This document shows, one piece after another, positions 16,891 through 24,509 of a DNA stretch of 32,262 bases. Source of the DNA: Bacteroidota bacterium (GTDB taxonomy: Bacteria > Bacteroidota > Bacteroidia > Bacteroidales > UBA10428). A program made the position numbers and the translations under genes. Numbering within the stretch: the stretch's first letter is position 1; every line of letters begins with the position of its first letter. The stretch is taken from positions 1 through 32,262 of the forward strand of contig QKEH01000023.1 of the NCBI GenBank assembly GCA_003252385.1, in the 5' to 3' direction. A model generated the notes under the pieces. The model was not told the DNA's origin. It worked only from the letters and a program-made list of their open reading frames with translations, and made no database searches.

Positions 16891-17082
16891 TTAAGCGGCT
16901 ATGTATTCGAAAATATCGTTTATTACATCGGAGTGCGATGCTCCGTAATTGGCTTTCAGCCACTTATGAAGATTGATAATCTCGTAAGACTTCAACCATT
17001 TAAAGGATTTAACGATTTCCTTCCGAAACAGCTCCTTGTCATAGCTGACCTGATGCAACAGCATTTTTTGATGTTCTAACAT
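16891..17082 (-). CDS. Small hypothetical protein (63 residues)
   Basis: A short protein beginning MLEHQKMLLHQVSYDKEL. It is rich in Lys, Trp and Leu and probably all helical, with the segment FRKEIVKSFKWLKSYEI and a final DVINDIFEYIAA. It has coding-like composition and resembles small conserved Bacteroidota proteins of unknown function, though I cannot name a family. The ATG at 17080-17082 is preferred over the in-frame TTG two codons upstream. It stands alone between the glycosyltransferase operon and the divergent TonB receptor operon. Confidence 0.55.
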   Translation of the reverse strand: MLEHQKMLLHQVSYDKELFRKEIVKSFKWLKSYEIINLHKWLKANYGASHSDVINDIFEYIAA

Positions 17083-17312
17083 GTTCAACCGGATTTTGTG
17101 TATAATTCGAAATTACTATTTCACACCTCTCTGGCGAAATTTTTTAGGGTGAGATACATCATCCGGAAGCGGTTATTCATGCTAGTCCCAGAGCTTTTCC
17201 GAAGGAGGGGGTCTGTTGTGATAAAATGGGATACCTTTCAGAAACAACAAGGAATAGAGCAGTATTTAAGGACGTTTTTTGAAATCAGGTGTGTTAACCC
17301 CGAATTATTGTA

Positions 17313-17320
17313 TACATTTG
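17313..17320 (+). promoter_or_regulatory. Candidate -7 box for the TonB receptor operon
   Basis: TACATTTG matches TAnnTTTG exactly and lies 27 bases before the GTG proposed as the receptor start. No good TTG-type -33 element is seen at the expected distance, so an activator may be needed or the match may be chance. Confidence 0.4.
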
Positions 17321-17347
17321 GACGGAAGTAGCACAAAAAAAATTAAC

Positions 17348-19201
17348 GTGACACGATCTACTCGGCTTTTCGCCCTTATTCTGGGAAGTTTGGCATTCAA
17401 CCTGTTTGCTCAAGCTCCCCCATCATTTTTAGACGATACTCTGGCTCTTGAGGAAGTAACCGTTTCAACCACTAAAATAGAAGTGCAGGAATTTTCGGCT
17501 CCCTTAAGCATAACCAGTATACACAGCGAGGCTATTGAATCCTCATCGGAATCGGCTTTGTTTCCCATTTTGTCCGAGCAGGTTCCGGGGCTGTTTATTA
17601 CAGAACGGGGGGTTACCGGGTTTGGCGTATCGACTGGTGCTGCCGGCCAGATTTCAATGCGGGGTATAGGGGGCAACCCTACCTCGCAGGTGCTGATACT
17701 GTTGAATGGAAACCCTCAATATATGGGGATTATGGGGCACCCGTTGGCCGATGCATACACCACTTCGGGCGTGGAACGTGTGGAGGTGATTCGCAGCCCG
17801 GCATCGATGCTCTATGGTTCCAATGCCATGGGAGGGGTAATCAATATTATCACCCGCGAACCTCACGACGATGGCGCTCATGCCAGTGTGAAGGCGCAAT
17901 ATGGCTCGTTCAATACCGCTAAACTGATGGCTCATGCCTCCTGGAAACATAAAAAACTAAGCTTTTACGGCGGTATTGGCTACGACCGGACCGATGGACA
18001 TCGCGATTCTTCCGATTTCCACATTCTGAATTCAACCCTTCGGGGAAATTACCAGTTAAACAGCCACCTTCGGATTTACGCCGACTGGTCCATGGCGCAT
18101 TTTGAGGCGCAGGATCCGGGAGCCTTCGATGCATCCGCCGGGGAACGAATCAACATCCACAGGGGAATGTACAGCGTGGGCGCAGACAATCGTTTCGGGA
18201 AAACCCAGGGATCGCTGCGTTTTTTCCGGAATTTTGGCGAACATTCTATTACCGATGGTTTTCATTCGAAAGATTACAACTACGGTTTGGCGTTGCATCA
18301 GTCGGTGAATTTATGGAAAGGCCAAACCCTGACCCTGGGCAGCGATATGAAGCAATTTGGCGGAAGGGCTGAAAATGTACTGGCCATGCAGGGAAAGGGT
18401 TTGATGTTGCTAGATACTTCGTTGTACGAGAGGGCCGGTTATATGCTGCTTCGGCAGGAACTATTTTCCGGGCGCTTATTCCTGAACGGCGGATACCGGA
18501 TGGATTACCACAGTAATGCTGGTTGGGAGCCGGTTCCCATGGCCGGAATTACCTGGCGGGGATGGGAAAAAACCATATTCAAAGCATCGGTGGCGAAAGG
18601 ATTCAGAAACCCCACCCTGCGCGAGTTATACATGTTTGGAACGGCGAACGATCAGCTAAAGGCCGAAGATATGGTAAACACCGAGGTAAGTGTCATTCAG
18701 CATTTCTGGGACGACAAGTTCCGCACCGAACTTACTATGTACTATGCCGAAGGACACAATCTGATCGGTTCGCGTACCCTGGCCGGAAGAACCCAGCTAT
18801 GGAATACCGGACATTTTATACACAAAGGAGTAGAACTTCTGGCTTCCTGCAAATTGAACCGGCAATTCAGTGTAACCGCTAATTATTCCGGGCTGAACAT
18901 GGACGATCCTGTACCGGGCACGCCGGAACAGCAATGGTATGCCAATCTCAAGTTTAAGCAGAACAAATGGGGAGCCTATCTCGCCTGGCAGCACATTCAT
19001 CATTTGAATTTGACACAACTAAACGGCTCCTGGGTAAAAGAAAACTACCACTTGCTCAATACCGGCATCGATTACCGGGTAAACCACTGGGTGCAATTTT
19101 TTCTAAAAGCAGATAACCTGCTCAACGCAAGCTACGAGATGAATGCCGGGTACCCCATGCCGGGTATCATGGGATTTGTTGGAATTAATGTAAATTTATA
19201 G
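17348..19201 (+). CDS. TonB-dependent outer membrane receptor
   Basis: A receptor of about 617 residues with a signal peptide (TRSTRLFALILGSLAFNLFAQ), a TonB-box-like segment (LEEVTVSTTK), a plug domain (ISMRGIGGNPTSQVLILLNG, then GVERVEVIRSPASMLYGSNAMGGVINIITR) and a 22-strand-type barrel ending MGFVGINVNL. It has no CarboxypepD-like N-terminal domain and is short, like siderophore, cobalamin or metal-complex receptors rather than SusC. The start is set at GTG 17348 because it gives a proper signal peptide; a TTG at 17279 would add 23 unlikely residues. It is followed after three bases by the NicO-like gene, which suggests that the ligand is a metal or metal complex. Confidence 0.93.
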   Translation: MTRSTRLFALILGSLAFNLFAQAPPSFLDDTLALEEVTVSTTKIEVQEFSAPLSITSIHSEAIESSSESALFPILSEQVPGLFITERGVTGFGVSTGAAGQISMRGIGGNPTSQVLILLNGNPQYMGIMGHPLADAYTTSGVERVEVIRSPASMLYGSNAMGGVINIITREPHDDGAHASVKAQYGSFNTAKLMAHASWKHKKLSFYGGIGYDRTDGHRDSSDFHILNSTLRGNYQLNSHLRIYADWSMAHFEAQDPGAFDASAGERINIHRGMYSVGADNRFGKTQGSLRFFRNFGEHSITDGFHSKDYNYGLALHQSVNLWKGQTLTLGSDMKQFGGRAENVLAMQGKGLMLLDTSLYERAGYMLLRQELFSGRLFLNGGYRMDYHSNAGWEPVPMAGITWRGWEKTIFKASVAKGFRNPTLRELYMFGTANDQLKAEDMVNTEVSVIQHFWDDKFRTELTMYYAEGHNLIGSRTLAGRTQLWNTGHFIHKGVELLASCKLNRQFSVTANYSGLNMDDPVPGTPEQQWYANLKFKQNKWGAYLAWQHIHHLNLTQLNGSWVKENYHLLNTGIDYRVNHWVQFFLKADNLLNASYEMNAGYPMPGIMGFVGINVNL

Positions 19202-19204
19202 GCC

Positions 19205-19849
19205 ATGGATACAAACACTACATTTTTAGCCGTAACCGCAATGTCGGTGGGGGTTTTTCACACCCTTGCAGGCCCCGACCACTACCTGCCTTTTGTGGCG
19301 ATGTCGAAAACCAGAGGGTGGTCTATGATGAAAACCATTCAGGTGGTTATTGCCTGTGGGCTGGGGCACGTGCTTAGTTCGGTGCTTATTGGTTTTATTG
19401 GCATTGGAGCCGGTATTGCCGTTCGGGAAGTGGAATGGTTCGAAGGGGTACGGGGCAATATTGCTGCCTGGCTGTTATTTTTATTCGGTGTGCTGTATAC
19501 CCTTTGGGCCGTTGTACAAATTGCACGGAACCGGCATCACCATCACCACGAAATTTCGGAGAAGCGTAAAATGACCTTCTGGATTCTTTTTACCATATTC
19601 CTTTTTGGCCCCTGTGAGCCGCTGATCCCGATATTGATGTACCCGGCTGCTCAAAACAACGGAATGGCACTGGTACTGATTACCGGCATTTTTACCGTAG
19701 CTACTGTGGGGACTATGATTCTTACCGTAGTGACCCTCTTACGGGGGCTTTCGCTGGTTAAAATGCATGTTTTGGAACGCTACCAGCATTTTATGGCGGG
19801 TTCGGCACTGGCAATTTGCGGTGCGGGTATTCTTTTTCTGGGTCTCTAG
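19205..19849 (+). CDS. NicO/UreH-like metal transporter
   Basis: The 214-residue membrane protein has about six hydrophobic segments. The first carries GVFHTLAGPDHYLPF (His19, Asp25, His26), the H-x(n)-DH signature of NicO/RcnA/UreH-type nickel-cobalt permeases. The second carries GLGHVLSS. A His run (NRHHHHHE, about residues 110-117) lies in the central loop, and FGPCEPLIP is in the fourth segment. Family members move Ni2+ or Co2+ across the inner membrane; direction and ion cannot be fixed from sequence. It lies three bases after the TonB receptor and nine bases before the nucleoside-hydrolase/FmdE gene, hence one operon. Confidence 0.82.
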   Translation: MDTNTTFLAVTAMSVGVFHTLAGPDHYLPFVAMSKTRGWSMMKTIQVVIACGLGHVLSSVLIGFIGIGAGIAVREVEWFEGVRGNIAAWLLFLFGVLYTLWAVVQIARNRHHHHHEISEKRKMTFWILFTIFLFGPCEPLIPILMYPAAQNNGMALVLITGIFTVATVGTMILTVVTLLRGLSLVKMHVLERYQHFMAGSALAICGAGILFLGL

Positions 19850-19858
19850 AATGAACGT

Positions 19859-21271
19859 ATGAAACGATGGCTCTCACTTTTTTTCCTGGTTTTAGTGCTT
19901 CATGCAGCAGCTCATCCCTGGAAAGCTCAACATTATGTGATTGTGGATACTGATTGCGGACTCGATGACTTTCGGGCATTGAACCTCATGCTTGCTTCAC
20001 CGCAAATCCGGGTGTTGGCGGTGGTCACCTCACCGGGGGTGGTTTCGGCCGAACTGGGATCTGTCAAAGTGAAAGCATTGCTTCGCGACCTGCATCATGA
20101 TGGTATTCCGGTAGGGGCGTGGACCGCATCGGACATAAAGGCCAAAAATTGTCCCGCTGCGCTTCGTTTCGAATGGGGAAGCTCGGTGCAGGATTCCGAT
20201 ACCATTGCGAATGCTCTGGATGTGGTGCGGAAGGTTTTCCGATACACCCGGGAACCGGTTCAATGGGTAGCACTGGGAAGTCTCGATTTTACCCGGCATG
20301 CTGCCGACAGTCTGGATCATTTTGTCCATCGGGTACAGGAAGTGGTTTGGTTAAGTTCCGGCAGTATGGATTCGCTCGACTTTAATTACTATCTGGCACC
20401 CGAGGCCTGTCGTGCAGTCAGAAACCTGGGCATACCCTGTCATGCGATTGCCGCCAGGCGCATGTCGTATCCCGATTCGTTGCAGGCTCTGCTGAATTCC
20501 GTTTCCGGCAATCGGTATAAAAGACTGGCTGCCAGCCTGCAGGAAGCGGCACCTTTCGCTACAACTTGTTTTGATGAAGAAAGTGTATGGCATCTGATTC
20601 AGGAAAACAGTTACACGGCCGATACTTCGGCAGGCGGGGTATTCTATCGAAATAATGGAACTATGGCTCTATATGATTTCTACCGGCAGCTGCTCGGCTG
20701 GGAGCCTGCTGCGCAGAATCAGGTATTGTCCACATTTCCGATGCAAGCGGCTAACTATCTGGACGACGTGTCCACTATCGCGGATCAAACCATTCGAGCC
20801 TATGGGCAGGAAGAATGGATAGCCGGAGTTATAGCTAATGAGATGCACCGGCATCTGGGGGTATATGCCATTACGGGTGTAAAAATGGGCATACGGGCCA
20901 AAGAGTATTTTGGTGCCGGACTGGACGAACTTTGCATAACAAGCTATACCGGACTGGTTCCTCCCTTTTCATGTATGAACGATGGTTTGCAGATTAGCAC
21001 CGGAGCTACTTTAGGGCATGGTTTGATATGGGTTGCAGGCGATTCTTTGCAGTTGCCGCGTGCCGACTTTAGCTATATGGGCACCACCATCCGGATGCAA
21101 CTAAAAGAGGAATACCGGTTAAAACTGGCCCGGCGCATCCGGGAGTATGAGCAATTTTATGGTTTGCGCAGCGACATCTATTGGGAACTGGTGCGTGGCG
21201 AAGCTCTGAAAATATGGAGAGATTGGAACCGTTACGATATATTTGACATTACGGTGTGCAAAACGGAATAG
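19859..21271 (+). CDS. Exported nucleoside-hydrolase-like protein fused to FmdE-like domain
   Basis: The 470-residue product has a signal peptide (WLSLFFLVLVLHAAAHPWKAQ). Residues 25-270 resemble inosine/uridine-preferring nucleoside hydrolases: VDTDCGLDD (Asp30, Asp32, Asp36, Asp37) gives the Ca2+/ribose site, VALGSLDFTRHAADS replaces the usual GPLTN loop, and DFNYYLAPEACRAV matches the EFN..DPEA segment. Residues about 316-430 resemble FmdE: HRHLGVYAITGVKMGIRA (His330, His332), then FSCMNDGLQISTGATLGHGLI with Cys372 kept, but the second Cys of the family's TGCTLGKG changed to Ala and its Lys to His. The fusion is unusual. It may process a nucleotide-like or metal cofactor in the periplasm (inference). 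Confidence 0.78.
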   Translation: MKRWLSLFFLVLVLHAAAHPWKAQHYVIVDTDCGLDDFRALNLMLASPQIRVLAVVTSPGVVSAELGSVKVKALLRDLHHDGIPVGAWTASDIKAKNCPAALRFEWGSSVQDSDTIANALDVVRKVFRYTREPVQWVALGSLDFTRHAADSLDHFVHRVQEVVWLSSGSMDSLDFNYYLAPEACRAVRNLGIPCHAIAARRMSYPDSLQALLNSVSGNRYKRLAASLQEAAPFATTCFDEESVWHLIQENSYTADTSAGGVFYRNNGTMALYDFYRQLLGWEPAAQNQVLSTFPMQAANYLDDVSTIADQTIRAYGQEEWIAGVIANEMHRHLGVYAITGVKMGIRAKEYFGAGLDELCITSYTGLVPPFSCMNDGLQISTGATLGHGLIWVAGDSLQLPRADFSYMGTTIRMQLKEEYRLKLARRIREYEQFYGLRSDIYWELVRGEALKIWRDWNRYDIFDITVCKTE

Positions 21272-21339: not shown

Positions 21340-22317
21340 TCAAATCCTGGCCAGTGCCAGAAAGATAACATGTACCGAAATACTCACCGCCAGATAAATG
21401 GCACGTGCACTTTCTGATTTTAGTCCCCTCAGCTTGTAACGAATGGCGTTTCGGGAGCAGGTGGTGATACAATCGCCGCAATGGGTGCAGGTTCGTCCCA
21501 CCTTTCGTTCCCGGATCAGCTCAGGGGAGAGCGCCTCGTAACGACAGGCCGGAAGACAATGCTGGCAGCCATTGCACGCCGGGTCAATTTTAATCCGTAT
21601 GGGGTTAATGCCTTTCAGGTAGCTGACCACGGTGCCAACCGGGCAATAGTAAATGCAATGCACCATTTTCCCTTTCTTTGCAGACAGAAAGAAAATGACG
21701 GTTAATCCGCCGATTCCGAAACTGGCTACCAATGCGGAACCGAAGGAAGGTGGCAGGTTCAATCCTCTAAAAAGCAGTGCTGCGGAAATTACAACAAGCA
21801 GCACCGTATTTTTGATTAGCCACAGGTGTTTGTGGGTGGGGGATGGCTTTTTTCTGTCGGCAGCCCATCCGTCCAGTGCTCCCAAATAGCACAACTGGCT
21901 GCACCAGGCAGGGCCTGCCAGTACAAGGGTACTCAGAAAGAGCAGGGGCATAAAGCTCATTTCGCCACGGTAGATGGGGCCTGCCAAAATCATGGCGGGA
22001 ACCGGGAAATGCAGCCGGCCGGTCATTAAAAATCGCGAATCAAGCAACAGGCCAAGGAGCAGCTGTCCAAAGAAAGCCAGGGAAAAAACTTTCCAGGATC
22101 GCAGTCTCCATTTCGCAGTTTGTGCCGGCAGGAGCATGTGATACAGCAGAAAAGCTCCGTAGGTGGCAATCAACCCGATCTCGATCCAGCCGCTGCCGGC
22201 TATAAAGCGTTCGGCCAGAAGCATAGGCTGCTTCATATTAGCTTGAATTCCGCTCAGCAGGGCAGCCACAAAGATAAAAACACTTAGGGACCAAAGTAGC
22301 CTCTTGTTTCTGGTCAT
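21340..22317 (-). CDS. NapH-like polyferredoxin membrane protein
   Basis: The 325-residue protein has about seven membrane segments and two short Cys-x3-Cys sites characteristic of the NapH/CcoG/YccM group (CSQLCYLGALDGW and CIYYCPVGTVVSYLKGINP). Two [4Fe-4S] ferredoxin motifs follow at the C-terminal side (CNGCQHCLPACRYEA and CTHCGDCITTCSRNA). A final hydrophobic segment follows. Such proteins pass electrons between membrane quinol and periplasmic or cytoplasmic partners. It lies 60 bases after nrfA on the same strand, so it probably serves or assists nitrite ammonification. It converges on the nucleoside-hydrolase/FmdE gene with no clear terminator between. Confidence 0.82.
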   Translation of the reverse strand: MTRNKRLLWSLSVFIFVAALLSGIQANMKQPMLLAERFIAGSGWIEIGLIATYGAFLLYHMLLPAQTAKWRLRSWKVFSLAFFGQLLLGLLLDSRFLMTGRLHFPVPAMILAGPIYRGEMSFMPLLFLSTLVLAGPAWCSQLCYLGALDGWAADRKKPSPTHKHLWLIKNTVLLVVISAALLFRGLNLPPSFGSALVASFGIGGLTVIFFLSAKKGKMVHCIYYCPVGTVVSYLKGINPIRIKIDPACNGCQHCLPACRYEALSPELIRERKVGRTCTHCGDCITTCSRNAIRYKLRGLKSESARAIYLAVSISVHVIFLALARI

Positions 22318-22377
22318 GTTATAAAATACGTACCATACGGTGTTACTGAAAGCAGGGTGTACGAGTTGTGCAATGTG

Positions 22378-23901
22378 CTAGTTGGGAGTTTGAACCGGGT
22401 AGCCTGCCTCACGTTCACGGGCGGTGGCAAGCCATTGGGGAAGCAGGGTTTTCAGAAATTCCGATTTTTCAGCCTCCAGTTGTTCCATATTGAGCCCGAT
22501 GTATTGCTGCGCTTTGGCTTTGGTGCTGATATCCGGATAGGGCACTTGCTCGTTGTACCCCAAGCTGGCTAAAAGGCGTGCCAGTTTGAGACGGGCTTCC
22601 TGAGCCAGGTCGATGCCGGTGGCAATTACCCGGCCGGTTTCCACCGGGGAATGGAAAGAACCTCCATGGCTGGCAGCTGCATAGTCCCATCGCCATTGTG
22701 CGTGTCGGATGTCCAGAAGCACGTCTTGCATTTGCTGCTCTGTTGCCCCTAAGTCCCAGGCTTTTTTGGCTTCTACGTGGGCATGTACCAGCAATTCTTC
22801 CAGGGTGTTTCGGTTTTCGATAATCCGATCCTGCCTTTCGTAAACGTCGCGAACCAGGTGCTCGGTTTCTTCGCGGTGACAAACCTGGCACGAGTTGGAG
22901 ACGTTCTTCAGCGGACTCACAATGTGATGGCTGGTGAATTTCTGTCCTCCTTCCGAGATATACGGCATGTGACAATCGGCACAGGATACGCCGCGGCTGG
23001 CGTGCGTACCGGTTAAATAGATTTCGTACCCGGGGTGTTGTGCCTTAAGCATGGGCGCCTTGCTTAACTGATGGGTCCAATCGGAAAAATCCTTAGCATC
23101 GTAGTAGGATTCCATGGCTTCCGCCGACATGCCATTGTCCCAGGGGAAGGTAAGGTAGGGAACTTCCTCGGAACCCGGCCGATGCTTATCGAAATAGTAC
23201 TCCACATGGCATTGGGCGCACACCAGGCTGCGCATTTCCTGGTGACTGGCCTGCGAAATATCTTTTCCCTGTCGGTTAAAGGCTTCGATTAATGCCGGAC
23301 GCGAAATGCGCAGGTTCATGGTTTGGGAATCGTGACAATCGGCACAGCCAATGGCGTTTACAATTTGGTGTCCTTTGGTGTCCCAGCTGCCGCTGTAAAA
23401 TTCGGCAATGCCTACTTCGTTCATCAGACGGGGAACATCGGGACTTTTACAGGTCCAGCAGGTGTTCGGCATGGGGCTTTTTCGCTCGGAGGTGGGGCCG
23501 CCCGTACGCAGGGTATTCCAAATGTCTTTTACTGCATACTGATGGCCGCGTGCCTGGTTGTAGTCTTTCGAAAAACCGTAACCGGCCCATAGCACCACCA
23601 AACGGGGATCCACTTCCAGCATGTCGATGGTGGCCGAGCCGTTGTACTTGGTGCGCAACGAGGTGTCGCGGGTTTGCATAAAGGATTGGTATTCACGGGG
23701 AAAGTTCTGTCCCCATACTTCGTTCCGGGGTTCAAACTGATCGTATTTTACCTGGGGGGTGTAGGCAAAAGTGGCTTCTGCCCGGCGTTGCATGATGGAG
23801 GAGGCCAGCATGCCCAACAGGAAAACTACGGCAGCGGTTGCCAGAAACAAGGCCCATCCGATCACGGGACGTTTTTTAATCTGTTCGCTTAAAGGCTTCA
23901 T
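22378..23901 (-). CDS. nrfA: Ammonia-forming cytochrome c nitrite reductase
   Basis: The 507-residue pentahaem enzyme reduces nitrite to ammonium with six electrons in the periplasm. The active-site haem motif CWTCK (about residues 148-152, Lys as axial ligand) is followed by four CxxCH motifs: CADCHDS, CAQCHVEYYF, CADCHMPY and CQVCHREE. The conserved KFTSHHIVSPL carries the active-site His region, and VEYYF the calcium/Tyr region. An N-terminal signal anchor (about residues 13-34, GWALFLATAAVVFLLGMLA) probably exports the protein. It lies 32 bases after nrfH, its quinol-oxidising partner. Length is normal for the family. Confidence 0.97.
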   Translation of the reverse strand: MKPLSEQIKKRPVIGWALFLATAAVVFLLGMLASSIMQRRAEATFAYTPQVKYDQFEPRNEVWGQNFPREYQSFMQTRDTSLRTKYNGSATIDMLEVDPRLVVLWAGYGFSKDYNQARGHQYAVKDIWNTLRTGGPTSERKSPMPNTCWTCKSPDVPRLMNEVGIAEFYSGSWDTKGHQIVNAIGCADCHDSQTMNLRISRPALIEAFNRQGKDISQASHQEMRSLVCAQCHVEYYFDKHRPGSEEVPYLTFPWDNGMSAEAMESYYDAKDFSDWTHQLSKAPMLKAQHPGYEIYLTGTHASRGVSCADCHMPYISEGGQKFTSHHIVSPLKNVSNSCQVCHREETEHLVRDVYERQDRIIENRNTLEELLVHAHVEAKKAWDLGATEQQMQDVLLDIRHAQWRWDYAAASHGGSFHSPVETGRVIATGIDLAQEARLKLARLLASLGYNEQVPYPDISTKAKAQQYIGLNMEQLEAEKSEFLKTLLPQWLATAREREAGYPVQTPN

Positions 23902-23933
23902 AACGACTGTATTATTGGATAAGTTAGGGGGTG

Positions 23934-24509
23934 TTACTGGTGGGTTATTTTACGGCGGAGCCAGGCGGGTACCGGATTTTCCGGTAAGGGTACCCGGGCA
24001 TATGGAACACTCGACAGGCTGTTTACCCTTCCGTGTGGTGTTTCGCGATGGCATTCCCAGCATTTGCGGCTGGTACGGTTCATTTTGTGCTGGTGGATAT
24101 GCATAGCCATTTTAGGGTCAAGCAGGGTTTTGGAATGACAGCGTATACAGTTTTGCTGCACCACTTCTTGACCTTCTTCATGAATGTAGATTACCTGGGG
24201 CTCTTTGCGCAGCGTAAAAATGGTCGCATGGCGCATACCATCCTTAGCTTTAAAGTAGTATTTATTCAGTACGGAATTGTGGGGTACGTGGCAATCGTTA
24301 CAGTTGGTTACCTCCCGATGGGCGCTGTGGCTCCAAGTGGCATATTGCGGCGCCATGATGTGGCAGTTGACACAGGTTTTCGGGTCATCGGAGAGGTAGG
24401 AGTTCGCTTTGGACAGGCGAAAAGCAAAAACAGACAGTCCGGCCAGGATGCCCAGAATTATAATAACGGGCAGTTTCCAGGTGTCGGGAGGGCGGAGGAA
24501 TCTCAACAT
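23934..24509 (-). CDS. nrfH: Cytochrome c nitrite reductase small subunit (tetrahaem)
   Basis: The 191-residue product has one N-terminal membrane helix (about residues 13-32) and four CxxCH motifs: CVNCHIM, CNDCHVP, CIRCHSK and CWECHRE. The first, CxxCHxM, is the NrfH form in which a Met ligates the quinol-oxidising haem. NrfH belongs to the NapC/NirT group and passes electrons from menaquinol to NrfA. The C-terminal extension after the last haem (about 30 residues, Pro/Arg-rich) is slightly long. It is first in the nrf operon, divergent from the LytS-type kinase gene. Confidence 0.96.
   Translation of the reverse strand: MLRFLRPPDTWKLPVIIILGILAGLSVFAFRLSKANSYLSDDPKTCVNCHIMAPQYATWSHSAHREVTNCNDCHVPHNSVLNKYYFKAKDGMRHATIFTLRKEPQVIYIHEEGQEVVQQNCIRCHSKTLLDPKMAMHIHQHKMNRTSRKCWECHRETPHGRVNSLSSVPYARVPLPENPVPAWLRRKITHQ

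Follow-up and report, generated by a model that had tools for sequence, protein, structure and literature searches.

The receptor, permease and fusion genes described here probably form an operon for nickel acquisition that belongs to the NikR-regulon type, an assignment drawn from sequence and comparative genomics. The metal handled is very likely nickel, to which the reading was narrowed because relatives of the operon show nikR, NikR-type operators, nikMLQO, hyp and hydrogenase genes, and lar genes. In the window (the whole analysed stretch of 32,262 nucleotides of contig QKEH01000023.1), ORF analysis places a TonB-dependent outer-membrane receptor (17348..19201), a UreH-like inner-membrane permease with a His-rich loop (19205..19849) and an exported nucleoside-hydrolase/FmdE fusion of 470 residues (19859..21271) in this order on the plus strand. 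The gaps of 3 and 9 bases bear out the three-gene unit of the initial annotation. No nikR adjoins the operon in the window.

Pfam recognized both the barrel and the plug domain of the receptor (PF00593, 1.1e-24; PF07715, 2.2e-18), whose relatives likewise adjoin the fusion; its start is uncertain, being either TTG 17279 or GTG 17348. The -7 promoter element of Bacteroidota has the consensus TAnnTTTG, and the only match within positions 17001-17400 is the promoter-like box TACATTTG (17313..17320, plus strand). A candidate NikR operator, GTAGCAC-N13-GTGACAC (17328..17354, plus strand), begins 7 bases past this box and overlaps the assumed GTG start; it scores 12/14 as a direct repeat and 11/14 in the everted form, is weaker than the 12-14/14 sites of the relatives, and its score of 12 was reached by 14 of 5,000 shuffles of the 155-base stretch.

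The initial annotation had called the permease NicO/UreH-like, and only the second half of this label was retained. NicO (PF03824) was absent from the families matched at E<=1 by 14 members of the permease family, and the name was rejected on this basis; "UreH-like" is the better fit because a permease that is linked to nikR and carries HVVSGPDHLAA as its motif belongs to the same Pfam family as the relatives of the window permease. We take this GPDH motif to be the UreH signature. DsbD_2 (PF13386) was matched by 13 of the 14 aligned members (best 3.6e-9), a set that does not include the window copy; the latter had no Pfam match at E<=0.01, and its structural model comprises eight helices with no significant PDB match. 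The family resembles the UreH-type secondary nickel transporters in its GPDH motif and its adjacency to nickel genes, but it forms a divergent branch within Bacteroidota, has a His-rich loop and, in its window copy, lacks a direct Pfam match.

Both halves of the fusion, previously recognized by their motifs, exceeded the Pfam cut-offs. The nucleoside-hydrolase half (residues about 22-285; 19922..20713, plus strand) matched PF01156 at residues 27-195 (5e-14, 53.1 bits versus a cut-off of 34.2) and contains DTDCGLDD at residues 30-37 (19946-19969). The FmdE half (residues about 290-465; 20726..21253, plus strand) also gave a significant result, matching PF02663 at residues 329-392 (1.5e-11, 44.9 bits versus 22.9), with HRHLG at residues 330-334 and SCMNDGLQISTGATLG beginning at residue 371. 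Among the 42 columns invariant across 20 aligned homologues are H330 and H332 (20846-20854) and C372 (20972-20974), the three residues that the initial annotation had proposed as a metal site; this conservation, like the presence of the fusion in 20 of 23 genomes of the family, speaks against a chance arrangement. An AlphaFold2 model built with these 20 homologues reached a pLDDT of 84.7 and a pTM of 0.86; Foldseek related its first half to RihA-type nucleoside hydrolases (1yoe, 1.6e-11), and the 50 matches listed were all nucleoside hydrolases. As judged by eye, the N-terminus resembles a signal peptide. Of 108 scored fusions, 81 have a His at the very start of the predicted mature N-terminus (type AHPWKxxHY or AHSGK), and this His (region of residues 1-24, 19859-19930) is a possible amine/imidazole metal site.

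Alignment with RihA separates two sets of residues in the hydrolase half. Those for calcium and ribose (DxDxxxDD, the Asn and the late Asp) are retained: DxDxxxDD is kept in 107 of 111 fusions, N176 is invariant and D239 occurs in at least 90% of the 20 aligned homologues. The catalytic His preceding the late Asp is absent, together with the substrate-holding Asn and Glu of RihA; these roles are the ones that we assume for the RihA residues. The fusion shares with nucleoside hydrolases of PF01156 (RihA, 1yoe) the fold, DxDxxxDD, the Asn of the FN motif and the late Asp, but it differs from them in lacking the catalytic His and two substrate residues, in being exported and in its union with FmdE. 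The idea that the protein breaks down a nucleotide-bearing cofactor accordingly fared unevenly: the calcium and ribose residues speak for it, and the missing catalytic His and the state of this half in nikR-linked loci, where it is degenerate (L122) or missing so that FmdE stands alone (L093 and L126), speak against it.

The FmdE half is more constant within nickel operons. H330, H332 and C372 align with the Zn/Ni ligands H15, H17 and C55 (B8FYU2 numbering; alignment with 2gvi via the protein of locus L127). The HxH motif is present in 111/111 fusions and Cys372 in 109/111, both misses being N-terminally cut rows; the fourth ligand, C19 in B8FYU2, is replaced by Gly (G334) in 110/111, and the metal site is therefore left open. 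These metal residues are equally conserved in orphan fusions and in copies linked to nickel genes; the site was lost in the orphan fusion L128. Compared with FmdE proteins of PF02663 (B8FYU2_DESHY; Q9HJ63_THEAC/2gvi), the fusion passes the HMM cut-off and has the HxH and Cys ligands, but it is exported, carries FmdE behind a hydrolase-like half, has Gly for the fourth Cys and lacks a zinc-finger domain. By eye, a signal peptide is lacking from the FmdE-only proteins of L126 and of L127, the hyp-linked locus. Because the hydrolase half is degenerate or missing in L122, L093 and L126, all of them nikR-linked, FmdE is the more constant part there, and ligand cutting would be optional or absent; periplasmic nickel capture was accordingly put first and ligand hydrolysis second. 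An adjacency of most FmdE genes to metal-ion transporters has already been noted in the available text of PMC2954224.

The search for the fusion in relatives was productive at the family level, where 20 of 23 genomes match. At the order level, 34 of 247 genomes reach E<=1e-20, several of them through a single half (FmdE in L125, L126 and L127; hydrolase in L130) or in degenerate form (L122 and L128). An even draw across the phylum yielded 21 matches among 345 genomes at E<=1e-10, at full length only in the window genome. A single window protein as query found no match in named genomes; at least 277 loci were nevertheless confirmed there, of which the best 80 were retained. These best 80 of at least 277 are nearly all from Bacteroidota, mostly Bacteroidales, and include Odoribacter laneus, Alistipes and Tannerella, in addition to a single Ignavibacteria, a single Aminicenantes and one unclassified record.

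Neighbouring genes in these relatives repeatedly point to nickel. Among 58 stretches, profiles detected the receptor family in 18, the permease in 14 and nikR in 13. The 58 include 5 outgroup or hidden-core loci (weak outgroup matches in L094-L097; a fusion hidden under an overlapping ORF in L116) and two near copies (L025/L026), and a core gene was recognized in 53; profile counts are quoted since the 18-locus receptor cluster comprises L111 with low receptor scores (67 and 49). In the best 80 of at least 277 named loci, the corresponding counts were 17, 8 and 5. The identity of NikR was established by Pfam in L031, L093 and L195, and CbiM/NikM-type ECF genes adjoin the fusion in L033 and L195, the latter with the gene run nikR-nikM-nikL-nikQ-nikO-fusion. 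In L127 (2544-12999), an FmdE-only gene lies amid hyp and [NiFe]-hydrogenase genes, with hypF, hypC, a hypB-type GTPase and the large subunit recognized by profile and the remaining genes by eye; a hydrogenase subunit was also found in L126 (Pfam) and L116 (by eye). Two further genomes carry the fusion elsewhere: one has a single NikR-headed run nikR-larE-larC-larB-permease (L236, 5640-9548), the other a run of nikR, a canonical FmdE and a UreH-like permease (L234), which is an independent joining of the FmdE, permease and nikR families. The metal uptake proposed initially is thus supported by nickel neighbours, NikR-type operators and conserved FmdE residues, at the level of predicted function. 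Its molybdenum or tungsten context was dropped, as no Mo/W gene was recognized by eye among the recurrent neighbour clusters.

The expected recurrence of the receptor and permease near the fusion held for a part of the loci: receptor, permease, nikR or nikM lie near 38 of 111 fusions, and 73 have none of them in the stretch covered, a count in which loci on short contigs were scored as "none". The linked fusions are scattered over the tree, with at least 12 changes forced. In the best 80 of at least 277 named loci, neither nikR nor an operator accompanies the receptor-fusion pairs of Odoribacter and of most Tannerella and Alistipes loci. A NapC/NirT-type multihaem gene is the divergent neighbour in 29 of 76 named loci from the same best 80. 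Such a NapC-like gene adjoins many orphan fusions and was, together with the convergent nrfHA/napH genes, regarded as synteny; in the window, napH-like, nrfA and nrfH genes (21340-24509) are convergent to the fusion, an arrangement repeated in L027 and L029. The Pfam check of this multihaem gene covered L100, where it is fused to an FGE-sulfatase domain.

Of 170 system genes, 31 have a NikR-operator-like site in front of them, compared with 11 of the 967 remaining genes in these loci (p 2e-18); such sites also occur ahead of some fusion genes. The scored site was GTGTTAC-N13/14-GTAACAC as an inverted repeat, plus direct and everted forms; the range of orientation classes was enlarged following the first scan, and the control genes were scored with identical classes. 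The first dyad scan had been swamped by A+T runs, and the half-site GTGTTA served as the lead for the later ones. For deltaproteobacterial NikR, the available text of PMC545781 gives both an inverted consensus and an everted form; the direct-repeat form is an addition of this analysis.

The host genome encodes a NikR (G000:C114, 1.6e-29), as well as a [NiFe] hydrogenase with hyp-like genes, LarA and LarC. No operator candidate was found at the host nikR, and with up to 3 mismatches the inverted form occurs at 97 places in the host genome versus 258 for a control pattern, i.e., it is not enriched. The host nikR is situated at a maf-UbiA-KdsC locus (names assigned by eye), which carries receptor, fusion and permease in L122 and part of this set in L036 and L039; possibly, the window operon once lay next to nikR and was later relocated. 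Directly after the host nikR lies a NupC-type nucleoside transporter (L131, 3200-4995). A nucleoside link via this gene was considered and rejected, since it occurs in 1 of 21 nikR loci and is hence not conserved; these 21 comprise 20 other loci and L131, and L229 among them showed no nikR.

Co-occurrence across the 247 order genomes, in statistics that ignore kinship, associates the fusion with nickel use. NikR is present in 16/34 fusion-matching versus 37/213 other genomes (p 4e-4), the permease family in 14/34 versus 42/213 (p 0.008), LarA in 6/34 versus 6/213 (p 0.002) and LarC in 10/34 versus 21/213 (p 0.004); the permease family occurs together with NikR in 28 order genomes (p 3e-8). The [NiFe] hydrogenase alone is not enriched (13/34 versus 58/213, p 0.22), a count for which 71 of 97 PF00374-matching genomes were kept and those with matches to positions 1-69 only (complex-I-like frames of about 400 amino acids) or weaker than about 4e-12 were omitted. 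At least one of NikR, LarA and [NiFe] hydrogenase was found in 20/34 versus 73/213 genomes (p 0.008). The remaining 14 of the 34 lack all three markers, and none of these 14 has a urease; two of them (G406 and G422) do carry the permease family.

In the proposed mechanism, a nickel complex would cross the outer membrane via the receptor, the His-His-Cys site of the FmdE half would capture the nickel in the periplasm, and the permease would import Ni2+ to supply the [NiFe] hydrogenase and LarA. The half resembling a hydrolase would bind, and perhaps cut, the organic portion of the complex, which would be hydroxylated or ribosylated; binding is its most likely contribution and cutting an optional one, but this is the weakest step and is put forward tentatively. 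The stricter view that this half is a true N-ribohydrolase, which destroys the organic ligand of the imported nickel (a ribosylated chelate or dephosphorylated nickel-pincer nucleotide) and leaves the metal to the FmdE half, seems unlikely. It agrees with the ribohydrolase fold, the near-universal DxDxxxDD, the constancy of N176 and D239, the enrichment of LarA and the presence of the permease family inside a lar operon, but three RihA residues, the catalytic His and two for the substrate, are not kept, the half is degenerate or absent in nikR-linked L122, L093 and L126, and the host has LarC, which makes synthesis of its own pincer cofactor probable. Salvage of the pincer nucleotide was demoted as the main reading because of this LarC, and a literature search on the subject listed no paper with a title on this topic. 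It is quite improbable that the fusion is a periplasmic nickel-ligand hydrolase, which would cleave an imported ribosylated nickel chelate at its N-glycosidic bond and pass the freed nickel to the His-His-Cys site of the same protein; such a chelate may be, e.g., a dephosphorylated nickel-pincer nucleotide taken up after its release by other cells or otherwise scavenged from them.

The many orphan copies raise the question of whether the fusion has a general periplasmic role related to nucleosides, sugars or redox reactions and was recruited to nickel operons only sometimes. The 73 of 111 fusions without nickel-type neighbours, the 14 genomes without the tested nickel markers, the divergent NapC/NirT-type gene and the convergence of the window fusion with napH, nrfA and nrfH are in line with this, but linked loci are scattered over the tree, orphans keep the metal residues as well as linked copies, and operators precede some fusion genes, so that we consider a general role doubtful. 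The orphan fusions may work with a different metal or enzyme; otherwise, the role of the fusion is a broader one. An uptake of cobalt or cobalamin instead of nickel is highly unlikely: the receptor aligned with the TonB-B12 model over most of its length (1.7e-27), and the ECF genes are homologous to CbiM/CbiQ, but the receptor score is far under the model cut-off, a heme-receptor model scores equally well, an Rfam search of the window detected neither a cobalamin riboswitch nor any other match, and the regulators and neighbours are NikR, hyp and lar. Nickel acquisition remains the preferred reading of the operon.

NikR regulons with a TonB receptor or NikMNQO are known from the available parts of the reports on deltaproteobacteria (PMC545781) and Caldithrix abyssi (PMC5317091), with which the present set has NikR, the operator consensus, the TonB receptor and the ECF transporter in common; it differs from what is described there by the addition of a UreH-like permease and the nucleoside-hydrolase/FmdE fusion, and FmdE is not mentioned in the available text of PMC545781. 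A literature search, with preprints and most subscription journals outside its scope, yielded neither a description of the fusion nor a paper joining FmdE with "nucleoside hydrolase" or with TonB and nickel. The set would therefore be a variant of NikR-type nickel uptake with a component for which this search gave no description. According to the accessible text of a 2009 survey (PMC2667541), 6 of 30 Bacteroidetes were nickel users, and very few nickel transporters were assigned. With this operon, Bacteroidota, among them the gut genera Odoribacter, Alistipes and Tannerella with their paired receptor and fusion, would have a candidate nickel route, and the FmdE domain, whose function is unsettled, would gain a link to nickel. 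The operon would also make it possible to test whether an enzyme-like domain works on the ligand of a metal within the periplasm; hydrolysis of a nickel ligand, if true, would be a salvage step without a described counterpart in our literature search.

Other nikR loci of the relatives contain additional genes. Downstream of nikR, L220 and L222 have another kind of TonB receptor plus an ABC permease of the BtuC/FecCD type, which likely represent a second nickel-chelate route. Between nikR and the permease, L217 (3759-4613) and L221 (6556-7407) encode a protein that looks secreted, has about 284 residues and could be placed in no family with confidence; similar-looking proteins lie beside nikR in L226 and L227.
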